Shown here piece by piece: positions 51,176-60,384 of a stretch of 64,000 nt of DNA. The translations under genes were made by a program, and so were the position numbers. Under the pieces are notes generated by a model. The model had not been told where the DNA came from. It worked only from the letters and a program-made list of their open reading frames with translations, and did no database searches. Positions within the stretch are counted from its first letter, which is position 1, and each line of letters starts with the position of its first letter. The DNA comes from Natrinema caseinilyticum (GTDB taxonomy: Archaea > Halobacteriota > Halobacteria > Halobacteriales > Natrialbaceae), in the NCBI RefSeq assembly GCF_024227435.1, contig NZ_CP100445.1, positions 2,291,369 to 2,355,368 on the forward strand, given 5' to 3'.

Positions 51176-51445
51176 CCACGGCGGCTGCTCGCGCGCAGTA
51201 CCGGCTACCGAACGCTCGATCCTCGCCCCGTCGAGGCGATCCAATTCGTGTATATTCACTTCGAGGACGCCCCCTCGCTTCGGCAAACACAGGTCCGGAT
51301 AATTCCGCTCAGACTGAGGACAGTAATCAAACATGGTCAACTATTATAAACTCGAAATAAGTTGGAAATTTACGCAGGACGGCGGCGGGAAAGCCCAACG
51401 GACGGTGTGGCAAGAATTAAGTTCCAGCCCTGCCCCTCATTGGAT

Positions 51446-53632
51446 ATGCACACCGTAGCACAGTCGAACGTGGCGAGGGAGACGTACTGGGGAATCACCA
51501 GCGTCGAGTACGCGGTGTTTTACCTCCTCGCCTTTACCACCGTTGCCGTCTTCCTGTACGGCGTCTATCGGCGGTTCGCCCGCTATTCGGACGGCGACGA
51601 CGATTCGTTCGATCGGCTCGACGATCTGCAGAATCGCATCGTGAGCGCGTCCAAGATCGTGCTCTCGAACGAGAAACAATTCAACAGGGACCTCTACGGC
51701 GGTCTGATGCACTCCTTTATTCTCTGGGGATTCCTGTCTCTGTTTATTGCCACGTCCATCCTGATGGCCGAAGAGTACGGCGCCAAAAAGATCCTGAACG
51801 TGTCGTTCTGGGACGGCGACTTCTATCTCGCCTACCAGTTCATGGTCGACGCGATGGGCCTGCTGTTCGTCGTCGGCATCGGAATGGCGATGTACCGACG
51901 CTACTGGGTTCGGAACCACCGCCTCTGGGACCGCCACACCTCCGTCGAGGACGACCTCTTCATCTGGACGCTGTTCGCGCTCGGGGCCGGCGGCTTCCTG
52001 CTCGAGGGGTTGCGCGTTTACAGCGCCGGCATCCCGGACCACGAGGTCGTCAGCTTCGTCGCCTACGGGATGGCACTCGGCTTCGAGGCGATCGGACTGC
52101 CGACGCTCGGGCCCGAACAGGCCGGGCTCAACGGCGCCGGGTTCAACGTCGAGAACCTGCACTGGCTCGCGTGGTGGACCCACTCCCTGATCGCGTTCTT
52201 CTTCATCGCGTGGATCCCGTACGCCAAGCCGTTCCACATGATCTCCTCCTTCGCGAACGTCGTCACCCGAGACGAGAAAGCGGGCCAGCGCCTGCCCAAC
52301 GTCCCCTCGGACCTCGACGCGACCAACGCGGAATCTATCGACGACTTCACCTGGAAGGAGATGCTCGACCAGGACGCCTGTACCAAGTGCGGTCGCTGTT
52401 CCTCGGTCTGTCCCGCCAAGGCCTCCGACCGCCCGCTCGACCCGCGTAACGTCATCCTCGACCTGAAATCCTACCGCGAGGACCTCGAGGCCGGCGGGGA
52501 CGAACAGCCGATCATCGCCGACGGCGGCACGAGCGTCATCGACACGGAGACGATGGAATCGTGTATGGCCTGCATGGCCTGCATGGACGCCTGTCCCGTC
52601 GAGATCGAGCACCTGAAGAGCTTCACCCGGCTCAACCGCCAGATGACCGACCAGGGGGACATCAACTCGAGCATGCAGGACGTCTTCCAGAACGTCATGC
52701 AAAACGGCAACACCTTCGGCGATTCGCCCCGAAACCGGGGCGACTGGACGGAGGAGCTGGATTTCGACGTCGCCGACGCTCGCGAGGAGGAAGTCGACTA
52801 CCTCTGGTACGTCGGGGACTTCCCGAGCTACGACGAGCGCAACAAGCAGGTCGCCCGCTCGCTGGCGACCATCCTGAAGGAGGCCGACGTCAGCTTCGGC
52901 ATCCTCTTCGACGACGAGAAATTCGACGGCAACGACATCCGCCGCGTCGGCGAGGAGTTCCTCTACATCGAACTCGCCGGCCACCACGTCGAAACCTGGG
53001 AGGACTGCGAGTTCGACAAAATCGTCTGTACCGACCCCCACTCGTACAACACGTTCAAGAACGAGTATCCGGAGGTCGACTTCGAGGAGTTCGCCGACGA
53101 CCCGATGATGCCCTTCGAGTACGAGGAGCAGTGGAACGCAGACGGCGACGTCGACGTCCTCCACTGGACCCAGGCGGTGGAGGAACTCGTCACCGACGGT
53201 AAACTCGAACTGTCGGGCACCGAACTCGACTACACGGTCACCTACCACGATCCGTGTCACCTCGGCCGATACAACGACGAGTACGAGGCGCCGCGCGAAC
53301 TCATCGAAGCCACTGGCTGCACGCTCGACGAGATGCCCCGCAACCGCAGCAACTCCTTCTGCTGTGGCGGCGGCGGTGGCGGCCTGTGGATGGACTTCGA
53401 AGAGGAACCCAAACCCAGCGAAGAACGGATTCGAGAGGCGCTCGAGGACACGGACGCCGGCAGCGGGGTCGAGAAGTTCGTCGTCGCCTGTCCGATGTGT
53501 ATGACGATGTACGAGGACGGCCGCAAGACCGGCGGCTACGAGGACGAAATCGAGATCGTCGACGTCGCCGAACTCATCGTGGAAGCGATCGGGAAGGAAG
53601 ACGAAGCGAAGGTCCAGGTCGCGGCCGACTGA
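51446..53632 (+). CDS. Membrane-bound (Fe-S)-binding oxidoreductase, HdrD/GlpC-like
   Basis: A 728-residue membrane-bound electron-transfer protein. The first 290 residues contain about five helices of a NarI-like haem b module (LMHSFILWGFLSLFIATSIL, WTHSLIAFFFIAWIPYAKPF). Two 4Fe-4S ferredoxin motifs follow near residues 311 and 371 (CTKCGRCSSVCP, CMACMACMDACP). The C-terminal CCG domain has DPCHLGRY, SFCCGGGGGG and CPMC; the first CCG domain is degenerate. The likely role is passing electrons to quinone from a soluble dehydrogenase or ETF. ATG at 51446 is the start. Confidence 0.92.
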   Translation: MHTVAQSNVARETYWGITSVEYAVFYLLAFTTVAVFLYGVYRRFARYSDGDDDSFDRLDDLQNRIVSASKIVLSNEKQFNRDLYGGLMHSFILWGFLSLFIATSILMAEEYGAKKILNVSFWDGDFYLAYQFMVDAMGLLFVVGIGMAMYRRYWVRNHRLWDRHTSVEDDLFIWTLFALGAGGFLLEGLRVYSAGIPDHEVVSFVAYGMALGFEAIGLPTLGPEQAGLNGAGFNVENLHWLAWWTHSLIAFFFIAWIPYAKPFHMISSFANVVTRDEKAGQRLPNVPSDLDATNAESIDDFTWKEMLDQDACTKCGRCSSVCPAKASDRPLDPRNVILDLKSYREDLEAGGDEQPIIADGGTSVIDTETMESCMACMACMDACPVEIEHLKSFTRLNRQMTDQGDINSSMQDVFQNVMQNGNTFGDSPRNRGDWTEELDFDVADAREEEVDYLWYVGDFPSYDERNKQVARSLATILKEADVSFGILFDDEKFDGNDIRRVGEEFLYIELAGHHVETWEDCEFDKIVCTDPHSYNTFKNEYPEVDFEEFADDPMMPFEYEEQWNADGDVDVLHWTQAVEELVTDGKLELSGTELDYTVTYHDPCHLGRYNDEYEAPRELIEATGCTLDEMPRNRSNSFCCGGGGGGLWMDFEEEPKPSEERIREALEDTDAGSGVEKFVVACPMCMTMYEDGRKTGGYEDEIEIVDVAELIVEAIGKEDEAKVQVAAD

Positions 53633-53812: not shown

Positions 53813-54100
53813 TTACTCGCCTTCGCTACGATAGATAATGTCGTCGATGTCGTCCTCGTCGATGCGGTCGCCGGTCGCTGCCGATTCGGAAAGCAACCCA
53901 TCGATGTCCTCGTCAGCGAGTCCGTCCCACTCGTCGCAGAGCGAATCGATGAATTCGGATCGAGACTCGTAGACAGTATCGACCAGTCGCTCGAGCAGTT
54001 CCTGTTCGGTTACGACGTGACCGGTCTCGGACTCGATTTCCGTCTGTAAGTCCTGCAGGCGCCCCTTCGTCCGGCTATCTATTTTTACCGATGTAATCAT
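53813..54100 (-). CDS. VapB-like antitoxin or small regulator (orphan)
   Basis: A 95-residue protein. The N-terminus MITSVKIDSRTKGRLQDLQT looks like a ribbon-helix-helix DNA-binding element, followed by a helical TEQELLERLVDTVYESRSEF and an acidic tail (EDIDGLLSESAATGDRIDED). This is the architecture of haloarchaeal VapB-type antitoxins. No PIN toxin follows; downstream is the Fe-S protein gene. TATA gttttacaat lies 26 nt upstream. Confidence 0.7.
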   Translation of the reverse strand: MITSVKIDSRTKGRLQDLQTEIESETGHVVTEQELLERLVDTVYESRSEFIDSLCDEWDGLADEDIDGLLSESAATGDRIDEDDIDDIIYRSEGE

Positions 54101-54224: not shown

Positions 54225-54965
54225 TCAGTCGGTTCGACCGACTCGCGGCGACGCTTCACGTGGCGGTTCGTCGGGTGCGGCGTCGGTCGCAGTTACCTCG
54301 CGGACGAACTCGAGGAAGTTATCGAACACGAGTTTCGCCTCGCACGCCCGCCGGTAGTTCGCCTCCGTTATGTCGTCGAGGAGCGTCTCGCGGCGCTCGT
54401 CGGAGAGGTCCTTCCGATTGACGAGGCCGCGTGCGGTCGTGATGTCGTACTCCGGGTGGAACTGGACCCCGAAGACCCGTTCCTTGCGGAAACCGTGGTT
54501 CGAGTAGTCGTTTTCGGCGAGGGAGGTGCTCCCCGGCGGGAGTTCGGACACTTCGTCGGTGTGGCTGGTGAAGACGGTGAACGTTTCGTCGATGCCGTCG
54601 AACAGCCGTGATTCGCCGGTATGTTCGACCTCGCTGTACCCGACCTCGTAGACCCCCATATCCGTGACGGCGCCGCCGAGGACGTCGGCCAGGAGCTGGT
54701 GGCCCCAGCAAACGCCCAGAAACGGCATCCCGCGATCGATCGCGTCGTCGACCCACTCCGCGAGCGGCCGCATCCAGTCTTCCTCCCAGTACACCGACGC
54801 TCGAGAGCCGGTGATCACGGCCCCGTCGTAGTCGAAGCCGTCCGGTACGGCCCCGTCCGTGACGTCGAATTCCGCCAGTGACGCGTCGAGTTCGCGCCGA
54901 AAATTCCGCGTCGTATTCTCGTCCCGATACGCTGCGTTCAGGACGACGATCCGAAGCTGACTCAT
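54225..54965 (-). CDS. Class I glutamine amidotransferase
   Basis: A 246-residue GATase1-fold protein. The nucleophile Cys is in GVCWGHQ, and the His and Glu in QFHPEYD. It is similar to stand-alone GMP synthase-like amidotransferases that act on unknown amide acceptors. An extension of about 25 acidic and Arg residues follows the fold. No synthetase partner gene is adjacent, so the substrate is open. Confidence 0.9.
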   Translation of the reverse strand: MSQLRIVVLNAAYRDENTTRNFRRELDASLAEFDVTDGAVPDGFDYDGAVITGSRASVYWEEDWMRPLAEWVDDAIDRGMPFLGVCWGHQLLADVLGGAVTDMGVYEVGYSEVEHTGESRLFDGIDETFTVFTSHTDEVSELPPGSTSLAENDYSNHGFRKERVFGVQFHPEYDITTARGLVNRKDLSDERRETLLDDITEANYRRACEAKLVFDNFLEFVREVTATDAAPDEPPREASPRVGRTD

Positions 54966-55079: not shown

Positions 55080-56318
55080 TCACTGCGGGTGATAGGTGCC
55101 GTTTTCGTCCCGATGGAATCGTTCGCCGGTGTCGAACCAGCCGTCGGTGAACCGTCCGATATCAGCGGGCCGATCGGCACCGCCACGTCCAGATTCGTCG
55201 GATTCGTCCCGTTCCTCGAGCGGACCGGAGCTGGGGAAGTAGCCGTCGGCGACCATCGGTCCCGAAAGCTGGAGGCGACCGGTCGCCGCGCCGGAGAGAA
55301 CGGTTCCGTCGCTATCGACCAGTCGGACTCGACAATCAGGGACCGGGCGACCGACACCGGACCCGTCGGCCGCCGACTCGGATCGATCCGCGACGAACCC
55401 CTGGCTCAGGGCGGTCGGACACTCGAGGCGGCCGTACGCCCGTGCGAATTCCACGCCGCGGTCTCGATAGGCACCGGCCACGTCAGTGGCGACCGGTCCC
55501 TCGCAGACGACGCGCTCGAGGGAGTCGGCGGCCGCCTCGAATCCCGATTCGGCCGCGATCGCCCGGATCGCCTGCTCGCGCCCCGCCAGAAACGTCGCGC
55601 TTTCGGCGGCCGTCGCTGTCACGGCATCCGCGGGGTCGAACGCGCGATCGATCACGAGCGTGGCGCCGACGTAGAGCACCGACAGCGCCACCCGAACGAG
55701 GCCGTCTGCAGCCGCGAGCGGGGTCGGAAGCGGGACGACGTCGTTCGCGGCGAGTCCCCACGCGACGACGGCCGTGAGACAGTTCCGCTCGACGGCGCCA
55801 TCGGAAAAGCCGACGACCGGACGACCCGATTCGCCGTGCAGCGCCAGCACCGGGTCCGGCTTCGGCGAGTCGTCGTCCGGATCGCGGGGATCGCCGACGG
55901 TCTCGGCCAGTTTCTCGAGCGTCACGATCCGATCGTATGGGATCGACCGCACCAGATCACGCTGGGCGGGTTCGGCGACGACCAGGTCGGGCACCAGGGC
56001 GTCGAACGGCCGCTCGACCGAGGCGGGCGTCAGCAGATGAGAGATGGGCGCGAACGTCGCACCCAGGCGCCGACACGCGAAAAAGAGGGCGAGCGAGACG
56101 ACTCGGTTGCGCGTGACGAGACAGACCGTATCGCCGGGTCCGATTCCACGCGCCGAGAGAGACGTGGCCGTCCTCGCCGCGAGCGCCGACAGTTCGCCGT
56201 AGGAGACCCGGTCCTCGTCGATCGTCCCCGCGGGGGCATCCCGCCGCTCCTCGGAGATGTCGATGACCGCGGTCCGATCCGGGAAGTGCGCTGCCCGCCG
56301 CGCAAGCGAGAGGGTCAC
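55080..56318 (-). CDS. Truncated, degenerate AMP-binding (adenylate-forming) protein
   Basis: A 412-residue protein of the acyl-CoA synthetase-like superfamily, but without the usual C-terminal domain: it ends at the A7 motif (GWFDTGERFHRDENGTYHPQ), removing the catalytic Lys region. The ATP-binding P-loop motif is altered to LHGESGRPVV. The A5-like motif is AYGRLECPTALS. Full-length relatives have over 500 residues. GTG at 56318 is the start. It follows an alpha/beta hydrolase with an altered elbow; the two may work together non-catalytically or as a specialised pair. Confidence 0.7.
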   Translation of the reverse strand: MTLSLARRAAHFPDRTAVIDISEERRDAPAGTIDEDRVSYGELSALAARTATSLSARGIGPGDTVCLVTRNRVVSLALFFACRRLGATFAPISHLLTPASVERPFDALVPDLVVAEPAQRDLVRSIPYDRIVTLEKLAETVGDPRDPDDDSPKPDPVLALHGESGRPVVGFSDGAVERNCLTAVVAWGLAANDVVPLPTPLAAADGLVRVALSVLYVGATLVIDRAFDPADAVTATAAESATFLAGREQAIRAIAAESGFEAAADSLERVVCEGPVATDVAGAYRDRGVEFARAYGRLECPTALSQGFVADRSESAADGSGVGRPVPDCRVRLVDSDGTVLSGAATGRLQLSGPMVADGYFPSSGPLEERDESDESGRGGADRPADIGRFTDGWFDTGERFHRDENGTYHPQ

Positions 56319-56375
56319 GGGAGAGACTCCACCGCTCGAGTACGTAGTAGACGGGGGTCGATCGATGGACGTCGA

Positions 56376-57161
56376 TCACGTCGACTCGTTCGTCCCGTCC
56401 TCGAGAAACCCGCGCAACCGATCGTTGACCGTTCGCGAGCGTTCGACGAAACAGAGGTGACCCGCCCCCTCGAGTTCCCAGAACGTCCCGCGGGGCAGCC
56501 GTCGCGCGAGGTCCCGGCCGTCCGCCGGAGAGACCAGTTCGTCCGCGCCGCCGTGGATCACCCGCGTCGGCTGGGTCACCTCGACCAGCCAGTCGGTCGC
56601 GTCGAATCCGTCGAGCGCAGCGACCTGGGCCTGCCACCCCGCTCGATCGGCGTCACCGTCGGCCCGCCAGTCGACGATGCCGTCCCGGACGTCCGGCTGT
56701 GACTCGAGGAACGCGGCCGAGAGTCCCGCCTCGAGCGACTCCCGGAGCGCCCGCCGGTCGTCCGGCGAGGCGAACAGGGCCTCGAGCGCCAGCGCGTCTC
56801 CCCGCGGGGCGGTTCCGAAGAGCGTGAGCGTCTCGACGCGATTCGACGACCGTGCCGCAGACAGCGCGATCGCACCGCCGAGTCCGCATCCCACGAGGTG
56901 ACCGTTTCGGATCCCGCAGTCGGACAGCACCGCCTCGAGGTCGGCGACGAGCGTCTCGAGGGTGTAGGGCCCGTCGGGGGCGTCCGAGCGGCCCGTCCCG
57001 CGGAGATCCCAGACGACGACCTCGTAGGGACCGGCGAGGGCGGCGTGTTGCCAGCCCCAGAGCCAGCCGCCGAGACCCGCTTCGGAAACGAAGACGACGG
57101 GGTCACCCTTGCCGTCGCGGTCGTAATACAGCGAGACGCCCTCGTTCGATGCGGTCGGCAT
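56376..57161 (-). CDS. Alpha/beta hydrolase-fold protein lacking the nucleophile Ser
   Basis: A 261-residue alpha/beta-hydrolase-fold protein. At the nucleophile elbow, GxSxG is replaced by GCGLG (HLVGCGLGGAIAL), so the Ser position is Gly. An acid in HGGADELVSP and a His in GAGHLCFVE are kept. It begins 93 nt after alaS and ends 57 nt before the AMP-binding gene, all on one strand. Non-classical catalysis or a binding role is likely. Confidence 0.8.
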   Translation of the reverse strand: MPTASNEGVSLYYDRDGKGDPVVFVSEAGLGGWLWGWQHAALAGPYEVVVWDLRGTGRSDAPDGPYTLETLVADLEAVLSDCGIRNGHLVGCGLGGAIALSAARSSNRVETLTLFGTAPRGDALALEALFASPDDRRALRESLEAGLSAAFLESQPDVRDGIVDWRADGDADRAGWQAQVAALDGFDATDWLVEVTQPTRVIHGGADELVSPADGRDLARRLPRGTFWELEGAGHLCFVERSRTVNDRLRGFLEDGTNEST

Positions 57162-57254: not shown

Positions 57255-60032
57255 TCAGGCGTTCAGAATCTGGCGGAGAACGTCGGGAGCGTCCTCGAGC
57301 GCGTCGTCCAGGTCGTCGACGTTGGGGCCGCCGCCCTGTGCGAAGTCCGGCGGACCGCCACCGCCGCCGCCGACGCGGCCGGCGAGTTCGCCGACGACCT
57401 CGCCGGCGTTGACGCCCACGTCGTCCGGGACGGCCACGACGAACTGCGCGCCGTTCGCGCCGCTGCCGAGCACGGCGATCCGATCCTCCTCGACGAGGGC
57501 GTTGGCGGTCGCTCGCAGTTCGTCCATGTCGGCGTCGATCCGATCGACGACGGCGGTCGTGTCGCCGACCTCGACTTCCTCGCCGCCGCCACCGCCTCCG
57601 GCGCGAGCCTCGGCGAGTTGTTCTTTCAGGTCTTCGATCTGCTTGCCGCGACCTTTCCACTCCTCGAAGAACCGATCGGCGGTCTCGGGAACCGCGTCGG
57701 GCGACACGTCGAGGATCTCGGCGGCCTCGTAGAGGGCGTCTTCCGTGCGCTGGGTGGCCTCGAGGGCGGCCGCTCCCGCGGCGAACGTGATGCGTTCGAC
57801 GCCGTCCTGGACGCGCTCGGTGGTGAGCACTTTGATCGCGCCGATGTCGCCGGTCCGGGCGACGTGGGTGCCGCCGCAGGCCTGGACGTCCGCTTCGACG
57901 TGAATGAGGCGGATCTGCTCGCCCGGCGGGATACCGCCCTGGTAGAGATCGAAGCCGTGTTCGGCCTCCGCGTCGTGTCGATCGGGCCACTCCTGGCTGA
58001 CCGCGGTGTTGTTCATGACGATCTCGTTCGCGCGGTTCTCGATGGCTTTGACCTCCTCGCGTGAGATCCGATCGTAGTGGCGGAGATCGATCCGGGAACT
58101 CTCGACGCCCTTCTGGGCGCCGGCCTGTCGGATGTGGTCGCCGAGCACCTGTCGGGCCGAGTGGATGACGATGTGGGTCGCCGTGTGATGGCGCATGAGC
58201 TGCCGGCGGCGTTCGCCGTCGATCTGCCCGTTGACCAGTTCGCCCTTCCCCGGGTCCTCGTCGGTCCGATGAAGGATGACGCCGTCGACGATCTGAACGT
58301 CTTCGATCTCGACGGACGTGTCGTCCGTCGAGAGCGTCCCCGTATCCGAGGGTTGGCCGCCGCCTTCGGGGTAGAACATCGTCTGATCGAGGACGACGTC
58401 GTAGCCGTCCTCACGCTCGAAGACGTCGAGGACGACCGCCTCGAACTGGGTTCGCTCCTGGTCGTCGTAGTAGAGTTTCTCCGTCTCCGGGAGGTCCTCG
58501 AAGCGATCGCGTTCGCCCTCGTCGGTTTCGGCGACGGCCTCGGGCGTGTCGTGGCGCTTCGCGACGAGGCTGTAGAAGTCGTCCGGGACGTCGACGGACG
58601 CACCCGTCTCCTCGGCGATTTCGGCGACCATGTCCGGCTGGATCCCGTGAGAGTCGTAGAGTTCGATCAGCTCGTCGGTGGGAATCGGCTCGCCTTTCGT
58701 CGCGTACTCTTCGGCCAGGCTTTCGACTCGACGACCCCCGCGCTCGAGCGTCTCGCGGTACTTTTCGACCTCGGTGCGGACGATGTCGCGGATCGTGTCG
58801 CGGTTCTGGTACTCGAGGCGCTCGGCTTGCATGTCGACCAGTTCGTCGAGGGGCGCGTCGACGCCGGCGGTGTCACAGAGGCGCTTGGTGCGTCGGAGGA
58901 CCATTCGCGCGAGATAGCCCGTCCCGACGTTCGAGGGAACGATTCCGTCGCCGAGCATGTACGCGAGCGTCCGACAGTGGTCTGCGATCGCGTAGATGTC
59001 CTCGAGCGGCTCCATCAGGGCCTCGAGATCGTCGGCGTCGACGTCGAGTTCGGCGGCGATCTCGCCGCGGGCGGTCTCCATGTCCTCGGCCTCGTCGATA
59101 TCCATGTGGCCCGCGAGTTTGGCGGCCCGGTGAATGAGATCCTCCTGCTCGGCCGTGTGCTCGATCCCCGCATTGTCCTTCAGGAAGGCGATCATGTCGG
59201 GATAGACCGCCTCGTAGACGGTCGGCGTTCCCTGCGAGACCCAGGTCCACCGCTCGAGCCCGTATCCGGTGTCGACGATGTAGGTGTCCATCGGGCTGTA
59301 GCGGTTCCCGTCTTTCATCTCGTACTCGCCGTCGGGGTCTTGCTCCATGGACATGAAGACTAGCGTGGCGAGTTCGACGCCGCGGTAGATGACCTCGATC
59401 GCGGGGCCGGCGTTTCCGCCGCCGACCCACGGGTCCTCGATATAGATGACCTCCTCGAGATCGACGCCCAGCGAGTCGAAGAAGCTGTCGCAGAGTTCGA
59501 CGGTTCGATCTTTCCAGTACACCTCGCCGTGGTAGGCGTACTCGTCCTCCGGGACGTCCTCGCGCGTGTTGAACGCGTGATGGGCCATCATCTCGAAGGC
59601 CATCGTGTGCCGGCCCGTCTTGCCGACGTTGTCGATGTCCTGCATGCGGATGCAGGGCTGTGAGACACACAGCGGGTTGGCCGGCGGCGGGGTCTGCCCG
59701 CTCGTCACCAGCGGCTGGAAGTCGTAGATCGACGCCTGAGTCAGCAGGACGTCGTCACGCCAGCGGTTCGCCGCGACCGGATACGGGTCGATTCGCTCGT
59801 GGTCGTTGGCCTCGAAGAAAGAGAGGAAGGCCTCGCGCATCTCCTCGAGACTGTACGACTCCTCGAAACCGGCGTTGTCGATGAAGCCGTACTCCTCGCA
59901 GGGGGGCTCGCCGCAGGTTTCCCTGCCGTGATCGCGCGTCCAGAAGTGAGCGCCACACGTCGGGCACTCTTTGCGCTCGAATCCTTCCTCCTCGAAGTAC
60001 TCGAGGCGGTATTCGTCCGCCAGTTCGCTCAT
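57255..60032 (-). CDS. alaS: Alanyl-tRNA synthetase
   Basis: Charges tRNA-Ala and edits mischarged Ser or Gly. The 925-residue archaeal-type enzyme has a class II catalytic core with [20 protein letters not shown], an editing domain with the HxxxH zinc motif (RHHTATH), [13 protein letters not shown], and a C-terminal C-Ala/DHHA1-like domain with Gly-rich stretch (GGGGGG). ATG at 60032 ([20 protein letters not shown]) is chosen because a TATA element lies 30 nt upstream; a longer frame reaching 60335 would have an unrelated N-terminal extension. Confidence 0.97.
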
Positions 60033-60057
60033 TACGCATCTAGTGACCCTGCAACGT

Positions 60058-60066
60058 GTAAAACAG
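60058..60066 (-). promoter_or_regulatory. TATA element of alaS
   Basis: ctgttttac on the minus strand, centred 30 nt before the ATG at 60032, consistent with a leaderless transcript and with the shorter start. Confidence 0.45.
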
Positions 60067-60384
60067 TTCCGCAAATCGCCCCGCGAAACCATCGTCTGAC
60101 GGCGCCCAGATCGAACCGTGACGGGCGATTCTCGGCCCGTCACGCCTTCGTTTCCACCGGTTCGGCCGCCGGCTTCACTGACCGGCCAGCCGTCGACTGA
60201 CGGACCCTCGCGCGCCGGATCGGTCGGCCCGGTCGAGTCGATCGCCTCGGGATCGGTCGACCTGCCGTCGTCGACCGAATTCGAGACGGGGCCGTGGAGT
60301 ACGAACACACCATCCGGTGTATCCAATAAATCCATTAGTCTGGCTTGAGGTCATCAGGTAGAGACTGTCACCACTATCGACACA
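60067..60384. other. Divergent intergenic region between alaS and the sensor gene
   Basis: About 320 bases. An in-frame extension of alaS exists here ([20 protein letters not shown]), but it is placed before the likely promoter. I see no further gene; the promoter of the divergent sensor gene must lie here without a clear TATA box. Confidence 0.35.

Follow-up and report, generated by a model that had tools for sequence, protein, structure and literature searches.

What do two neighbouring genes do when the product of each has lost the residues for its family's chemistry? The question is raised by a locus in the window, by which we mean the whole 64-kb stretch of DNA that was analysed, where an alpha/beta-hydrolase-fold protein (hyd) lies beside an adenylate-forming protein (amp). 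The frame listing and the sequence of the window show a four-gene run on the minus strand, alaS, hyd, amp and gat. As a preliminary description of this DNA had it, the frames of hyd and amp are both intact and follow alaS on one strand; gat is a third gene of the run, which we add to the pair described there. The features of the locus are as follows.

57255..60335, minus strand: alaS (alanyl-tRNA synthetase) frame, 5' of hyd, named in the preliminary description and recognised by eye
56376..57161, minus strand: hyd, a PcaD-like alpha/beta-hydrolase-fold protein of 261 aa with the Ser nucleophile replaced by Gly (Pfam, alignment, model)
56883..56885, minus strand: codon of hyd Gly93, at the Ser nucleophile position, in VGCGLGG (sequence, alignments)
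57081..57083, minus strand: codon of hyd Glu27, an acidic residue where the Ser-bearing sister clade has Gly (alignments)
56541..56543, minus strand: codon of hyd Asp207, the triad acid (kept in 171/171)
56457..56459, minus strand: codon of hyd His235, the triad histidine (kept in 164/171)
55080..56318, minus strand: amp, the N-terminal domain alone of an adenylate-forming (ANL) protein, 412 aa, GTG start (Pfam, model)
55809..55844, minus strand: degenerate P-loop of amp (ALHGESGRPVVG) (sequence)
55422..55436, minus strand: A5-type adenine motif of amp, YGRLE, still recognisable (counts in the Glu column)
55122..55130, minus strand: A7-type motif of amp, TGE, soon after which the protein ends (alignment)
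54225..54965, minus strand: gat, a class I glutamine amidotransferase of 246 aa with catalytic Cys, His and Glu present (Pfam, motifs)

Pfam places PF00561/PF12697 in hyd and PF00117 in gat, and PF00501 is the sole family in amp (residues 6-361, 122.3 bits against a cut-off of 29.9). A frame of 95 aa 3' of gat (53813-54100, minus strand) has no Pfam match. Among the loci retrieved, Natrinema gelatinilyticum (Natrialbaceae) is the closest named relative (hyd 93%, amp 87%). In the family labels used below, f1 is Natrialbaceae, f5 is probably Haloferacaceae, f12 is probably Halobacteriaceae, and f17 is, we presume, perhaps Haladaptataceae.

The nucleophile elbow of hyd reads VGCGLGG (residues 90-96). 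In alignments, Gly93 stands opposite the serine of GLSMGG (2xua), GNSIGG (5egn) and GVSMGG (6eb3), which confirms the earlier reading that Gly takes the place of the nucleophile. The other two triad residues, Asp207 and His235, are both present in the window. The predicted model is a confident alpha/beta-hydrolase fold (AF2 pLDDT 95.1) that matches esterases and PcaD (Z 35.2 and 1.6 A over 254 residues for 6eb3), and the score against TIGR02427 (PcaD 3-oxoadipate enol-lactonase), 116.7 bits, is below the cut-off of 255.85.

Gly at the nucleophile position is a property of the orthologous group as sampled, well beyond what chance would give. It occurs in 171/171 distinct hyd orthologues from nine haloarchaeal families (f1, f3, f4, f5, f6, f7, f8, f14 and f17), as it did in smaller earlier samples (99/99, then 107/107). 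These 171 distinct sequences come from 182 rows, for which the best match per stretch was taken whatever its residues, the genomes being those of the higher-ranked listed matches. In f12, the best match is of the Ser type in three genomes (L175, L176 and L210). When 40 Gly rows are placed in a tree with 19 Ser-bearing ones, the Gly rows form one clade at 100/100, with the bootstrap nearly, not fully, settled. In the window's own genome the relative closest to hyd keeps Ser (GASMGG), which makes it an internal control; it lies at L163:1492-2418 (minus strand), and a frame nearby looks PCNA-like by eye.

The remainder of the site has changed less. Asp207 is kept in 171/171 orthologues and His235 in 164/171, the other seven having Arg (6) or Asn (1). 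The sequences with Arg or Asn (L203, L204, L131, L140, L248, L267 and L263) are natural variants that carry a further lesion. Position 27 is Asp or Glu in 165/171 (Pro in 5, Ala in 1), and in a smaller alignment it was acidic in 106/107 of the Gly clade versus Gly in 13/13 of the Ser clade; L263 lacks both the acidic residue and the His. By alignment with an HG-type motif, position 27 immediately precedes what we take to be the oxyanion-hole residue. The stops seen in rows L058 and L236 are gene ends that the alignment read past; the TAG in the match of G140 is likewise the gene end, and that of G271 is not seen in the aligned part.

In ANL enzymes, whose motifs are numbered (A3, A5, A7, A10), the P-loop, motif A3, follows a [ST]GxTGxPK-type pattern. 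In amp of the window it is LALHGESGRPVVGF, and the canonical form is found in 0/65 f1 and 0/16 f17 amp sequences. The role of this loop in class I adenylate-forming enzymes is described in PMC6122825. The C-terminal end of amp, ...WFDTGERFHRDENGTYHPQ, comes directly after the A7-type motif; the C-terminal domain is gone in 65/65 distinct f1 sequences, with a tail of at most 35 aa after that motif. The preliminary description was thus right that amp lacks this domain with its catalytic Lys and has an altered P-loop. In f17 the domain is kept in 13/16 sequences and gone in 3/16, and in 13/13 of the domain-bearing sequences the A10 Lys is Glu (LPRRxTGELxR-type, versus LPRSGPGKLDR in L134). The same parts are therefore missing from orthologues as from the window's pair, a comparison that the preliminary description had proposed: Gly throughout hyd, and in amp no P-loop and Glu for Lys even where f17 keeps the domain. 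The two f14 sequences (361 and 362 aa) have the same end point and also lack the P-loop.

The A5-type Glu is kept in 58/65 f1 and 15/16 f17 amp sequences, so that some of the adenine site may remain. Among 28 Natrialbaceae sequences 51 residues are invariant, many of them outside the classical motifs. The core of amp is modelled well (82.5), and the structural matches of the model include feruloyl-CoA synthetase and further ligases. A full-length orthologue is present in 29/29 genomes of the genus (64-100% identical) and, in the order sample, in 29/47 Natrialbaceae genomes outside the genus (a hand count, judged by identity); five of those outside (G033, G129, G140, G255 and G282) have weaker, intact-type relatives alone, and 13 of the 47 have no amp match at 1e-32. 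No listed amp match in the genus set or the order sample has an internal stop. In a tree of 63 amp rows, the 37 sequences without the catalytic parts (f1, f14 and f17) form one clade (100/100), adjoined by the intact rows L134, L183 and L184a of amp3, with amp2 farther out.

A C-terminal domain encoded separately may complement amp in trans, yet amp also lacks the P-loop. A scan of the window's own genome for PF13193 found 41 matches. Open frames of at least 397 aa account for 38 of them; the other 3 lie on contig C2, in frames of 297, 171 and 86 aa. The short-frame matches in this genome (G000) lie at C2:592809-593036, C2:659359-659595 and C2:637111-637257 and could be stand-alone or broken domains.

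Wherever both genes occur in a stretch, their order is the same. We find hyd 5' of amp on one strand in 28/28 stretches (27 of the genus and one other Natrialbaceae), in 38/38 named Natrialbaceae, whose genomes overlap with the 28-stretch set, and in 16/16 f17 stretches, so that the conservation of the gene pair, for which a check had been suggested, holds. In many stretches alaS precedes hyd on the same strand. The pair is not obligatory, and the joint role proposed in the preliminary description does not hold in that strict form: in 25 hyd stretches that were checked for amp, none matched at 1e-3, and in both f14 genomes looked at amp lies away from hyd (about 1.2 Mb apart in G049, on different contigs in G063). 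The other half of that proposal, two pseudoenzymes, stands as far as the lost classical residues and the intact, conserved genes are concerned.

The steadier partner of hyd is gat. It lies on the same strand as hyd in 76/94 hyd stretches and on the opposite strand in 0; it was not found in 18/94, some of which are contig ends. Of the 94 stretches, some break off where a contig ends, and some genomes may be represented twice. The motifs of a predicted Cys-His-Glu triad, G(V/I)C(W/Y/F)GHQ and (V/L/I)QFHPE, are present in 93/93 gat sequences. Thus, hyd and gat are a more widely kept unit than hyd and amp, and amp is accessory.

Further neighbours are found beyond gat. An acyl-CoA dehydrogenase gene lies 3' of gat on the same strand in 21/76 hyd-gat stretches (f1, f5, f7, f14 and f17), and a convergent Fe-S oxidoreductase gene lies beside gat in 27 f1 stretches, the window included. 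Of the 76 stretches, 23 show neither gene although they extend 1600 bases or more past gat, and 4 others show neither in less room; 1 has the dehydrogenase elsewhere. In the window, the acyl-CoA dehydrogenase is absent beyond gat and the Fe-S oxidoreductase is there, a 756-aa protein with 4Fe-4S and CCG domains (51362-53632, plus strand, convergent with gat). This protein presumably resembles the menaquinone-reducing oxidoreductases fed by acyl-CoA dehydrogenases. When all frames of 37 stretches are compared, the genes that recur are alaS, hyd, gat, amp and one acyl-CoA dehydrogenase; four further frame clusters were looked into, and the rest were judged by eye to be shadow frames.

Could the two genes simply be recent pseudogenes, decaying in the window genome? 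That both lack catalytic parts is what local decay would produce. The same lesions, however, are fixed in orthologues of many genera and families, the frames are open, and purifying selection acts on both genes. Compared with its nearest relative, the window genome gives dN/dS values of 0.14 (hyd), 0.23 (gat) and 0.29 (amp), and of 0.10 for alaS, the last from a fragment of some 184 codons. For the other pairs of the genus set the median is 0.20 in hyd (325 pairs), 0.21 in gat (378) and 0.28 in amp (378), all from simple Nei-Gojobori counts on pairs that are not independent. The preliminary description had named in advance orthologues with full domains and a Ser nucleophile as the mark of local decay, and Ser occurs in 0/171. 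We therefore reject this explanation, which is scarcely credible.

If the losses are old, intact counterparts may show what was lost. In 11 stretches (f1, f4, f5, f7, f12 and f17) a Ser hydrolase (GASMGG) has behind it, in the same orientation, a full-length ligase that carries TGGSTG(T/V)P and, at its end, GP(S/D)K(I/L)DR. These intact adjacent relatives form clades separate from the Gly hyd and from the amp that lacks its catalytic parts. Intact pairs are found in three annotated plasmid records (Salarchaeum pJOR178, a Halobaculum roseum plasmid and a Halomicrococcus plasmid), in all of which a MaoC gene lies beside the pair; LIV-type ABC transporter genes are near it in Salarchaeum and Halobaculum roseum, with none in the Halomicrococcus stretch. 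The gene families of L184 and L174 agree with these annotated plasmid pairs. At L184:4719-14130 (plus strand), intact amp2 and amp3 stand around an LIV-type ABC transporter and an HVO_2525-type HTH protein in one run.

The sister group of hyd is the Ser clade, most of which lies beside amp2, but the group nearest to amp is amp3, with amp2 the next, and the amp3 stretches L183 and L184 gave no hydrolase match. That hyd-amp and the intact pair go back to a single co-duplication is thus no more than plausible. Intact adjacent pairs exist in the same order, and catalysis would therefore have been lost stepwise in an old pair; as they are alive in haloarchaea, the inactivated pair has living intact counterparts. 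We propose that hyd and amp descend from a working PcaD-like serine hydrolase and an AMP-forming acyl-CoA-type ligase. The hydrolase would have lost its Ser nucleophile in the ancestor of the Gly clade, Asp207 and mostly His235 staying in place, and the ligase would have lost its P-loop and, before or after this, its A10 Lys, which became Glu in f17, while the whole C-terminal domain was lost in f1 and f14. Living haloarchaea would then display a series of loss, from the intact pair through a ligase without P-loop and Lys to one without the domain, with the genes kept throughout.

By the definition of pseudoenzymes used here (PMC10211241), both proteins would qualify, as each has lost conserved catalytic motifs by sequence; migrated catalytic residues are possible in hyd. 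That the genes are kept across many genera despite their lost catalytic parts suggests that they now serve a purpose other than the reactions of their ancestors. The explanation we put forward, and give an even chance, is that hyd and amp bind ligands, hyd perhaps near acyl-CoA oxidation together with gat, and amp as a dispensable partner. Both would now most likely be non-hydrolytic and non-adenylating. In its old pocket hyd would probably hold a small acyl or CoA-type ligand, working with the neighbouring gat in or near acyl-CoA oxidation; amp may bind a nucleotide or an acyl ligand and would be unable to form an adenylate. We infer the ligand binding, a physical partnership and the link to acyl-CoA metabolism, the last entirely from the neighbouring genes. 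The top-ranked literature matches, by their titles and abstract openings, hold nothing on the hyd-amp pair or on a Gly-nucleophile haloarchaeal hydrolase.

Against ligand binding, a pure binding protein need not keep an invariant Asp and a near-invariant His or gain an acidic residue. The 25 hyd stretches with no amp nearby, the 18 in which gat was not found and the 23 with neither dehydrogenase nor Fe-S oxidoreductase also count against the explanation as a whole. The strongest rival takes these residues as a rewired, non-serine active site, in which Glu or Asp27 would do acid-base chemistry with His235 and Asp207, for example as a lyase, hydratase or tautomerase on an acyl-CoA or enol; the lost Ser side chain is proposed to have left room for the carboxylate. 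The switch at position 27 (165/171 acidic, or 106/107 in the smaller set, versus Gly in 13/13 of the Ser clade) speaks for it, as do Asp207 in 171/171, His235 in 164/171 and the retention near position 27 of Trp33, Trp35 and Trp37, which are likewise kept in the Ser clade. However, His has become Arg in 6 orthologues and Asn in 1, five have Pro and one has Ala at position 27, L263 has neither residue, and the switch is a single branch of the tree, which puts covariation beyond a statistical test; overall we think a rewired site unlikely. It is quite unlikely, too, that the Gly clade of nine families carries out catalysis off the nucleophile elbow together with gat, having taken on a dismantled acyl-CoA ligase as a binding subunit in some of them. 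A substitute nucleophile in a shifted elbow might be sought in Cys92, beside Gly93, which is Cys in the window and in many Natrialbaceae, but the position varies (Cys in 54/107, Ala in 42, the rest Leu, Tyr, Thr, Ser or Val); this very improbable candidate was rejected.

For amp, ligand binding has to be weighed against the suggestion that only hyd and gat matter and that amp is a slowly eroding passenger, lost in several lineages. The progressive erosion from f17 to f1 fits such a passenger, as do a dN/dS above those of hyd and gat, the lack of any remnant near hyd in the 25 stretches, and retention in 29/47 Natrialbaceae genomes outside the genus. Yet dN/dS is well below 1, the listed matches have no internal stop, the gene is full length in 29/29 genomes of the genus, and 51 residues are invariant among the 28 Natrialbaceae sequences, and we hold an idle amp to be decidedly unlikely. 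The Gly clade is a widespread archaeal family that the bare annotation "hydrolase" would describe wrongly or incompletely, and the acidic replacement at position 27 makes a specific claim on whether the site is dead or rewired.

Among known systems, hyd is most like the PcaD-type 3-oxoadipate enol-lactonases and PcaD-like esterases (TIGR02427; 2xua, 6eb3 and 8v16). It shares their fold and length (Z 33-35) and their triad Asp and His, and they are among its best family and sequence matches; it differs in having Gly for Ser, in having Glu or Asp at position 27, where the Ser-bearing haloarchaeal clade has Gly, and in scoring below the TIGR02427 cut-off. Similarly, amp shares the N-terminal fold and the A5-type motif of ANL enzymes such as feruloyl-CoA synthetase (8wev) and MenE/FadD-type ligases, but not their P-loop, C-terminal domain or A10 Lys. 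The intact haloarchaeal pair is like hyd-amp in adjacency, order and strand, and in the trees its members stand closest, or second closest, to hyd and amp; unlike hyd-amp, it has Ser, P-loop and A10 Lys in its 11 stretches, and MaoC beside the plasmid copies. The NDRG proteins are described as having a non-enzymatic alpha/beta-hydrolase fold in which the nucleophile is lost and activity presumed lost (PMC7022630). They resemble hyd in keeping the fold without the nucleophile. In NDRG3, by the same account (PMC7022630), the whole triad is replaced and the path to the pocket is blocked, whereas in hyd the Asp is invariant and the His mostly kept.
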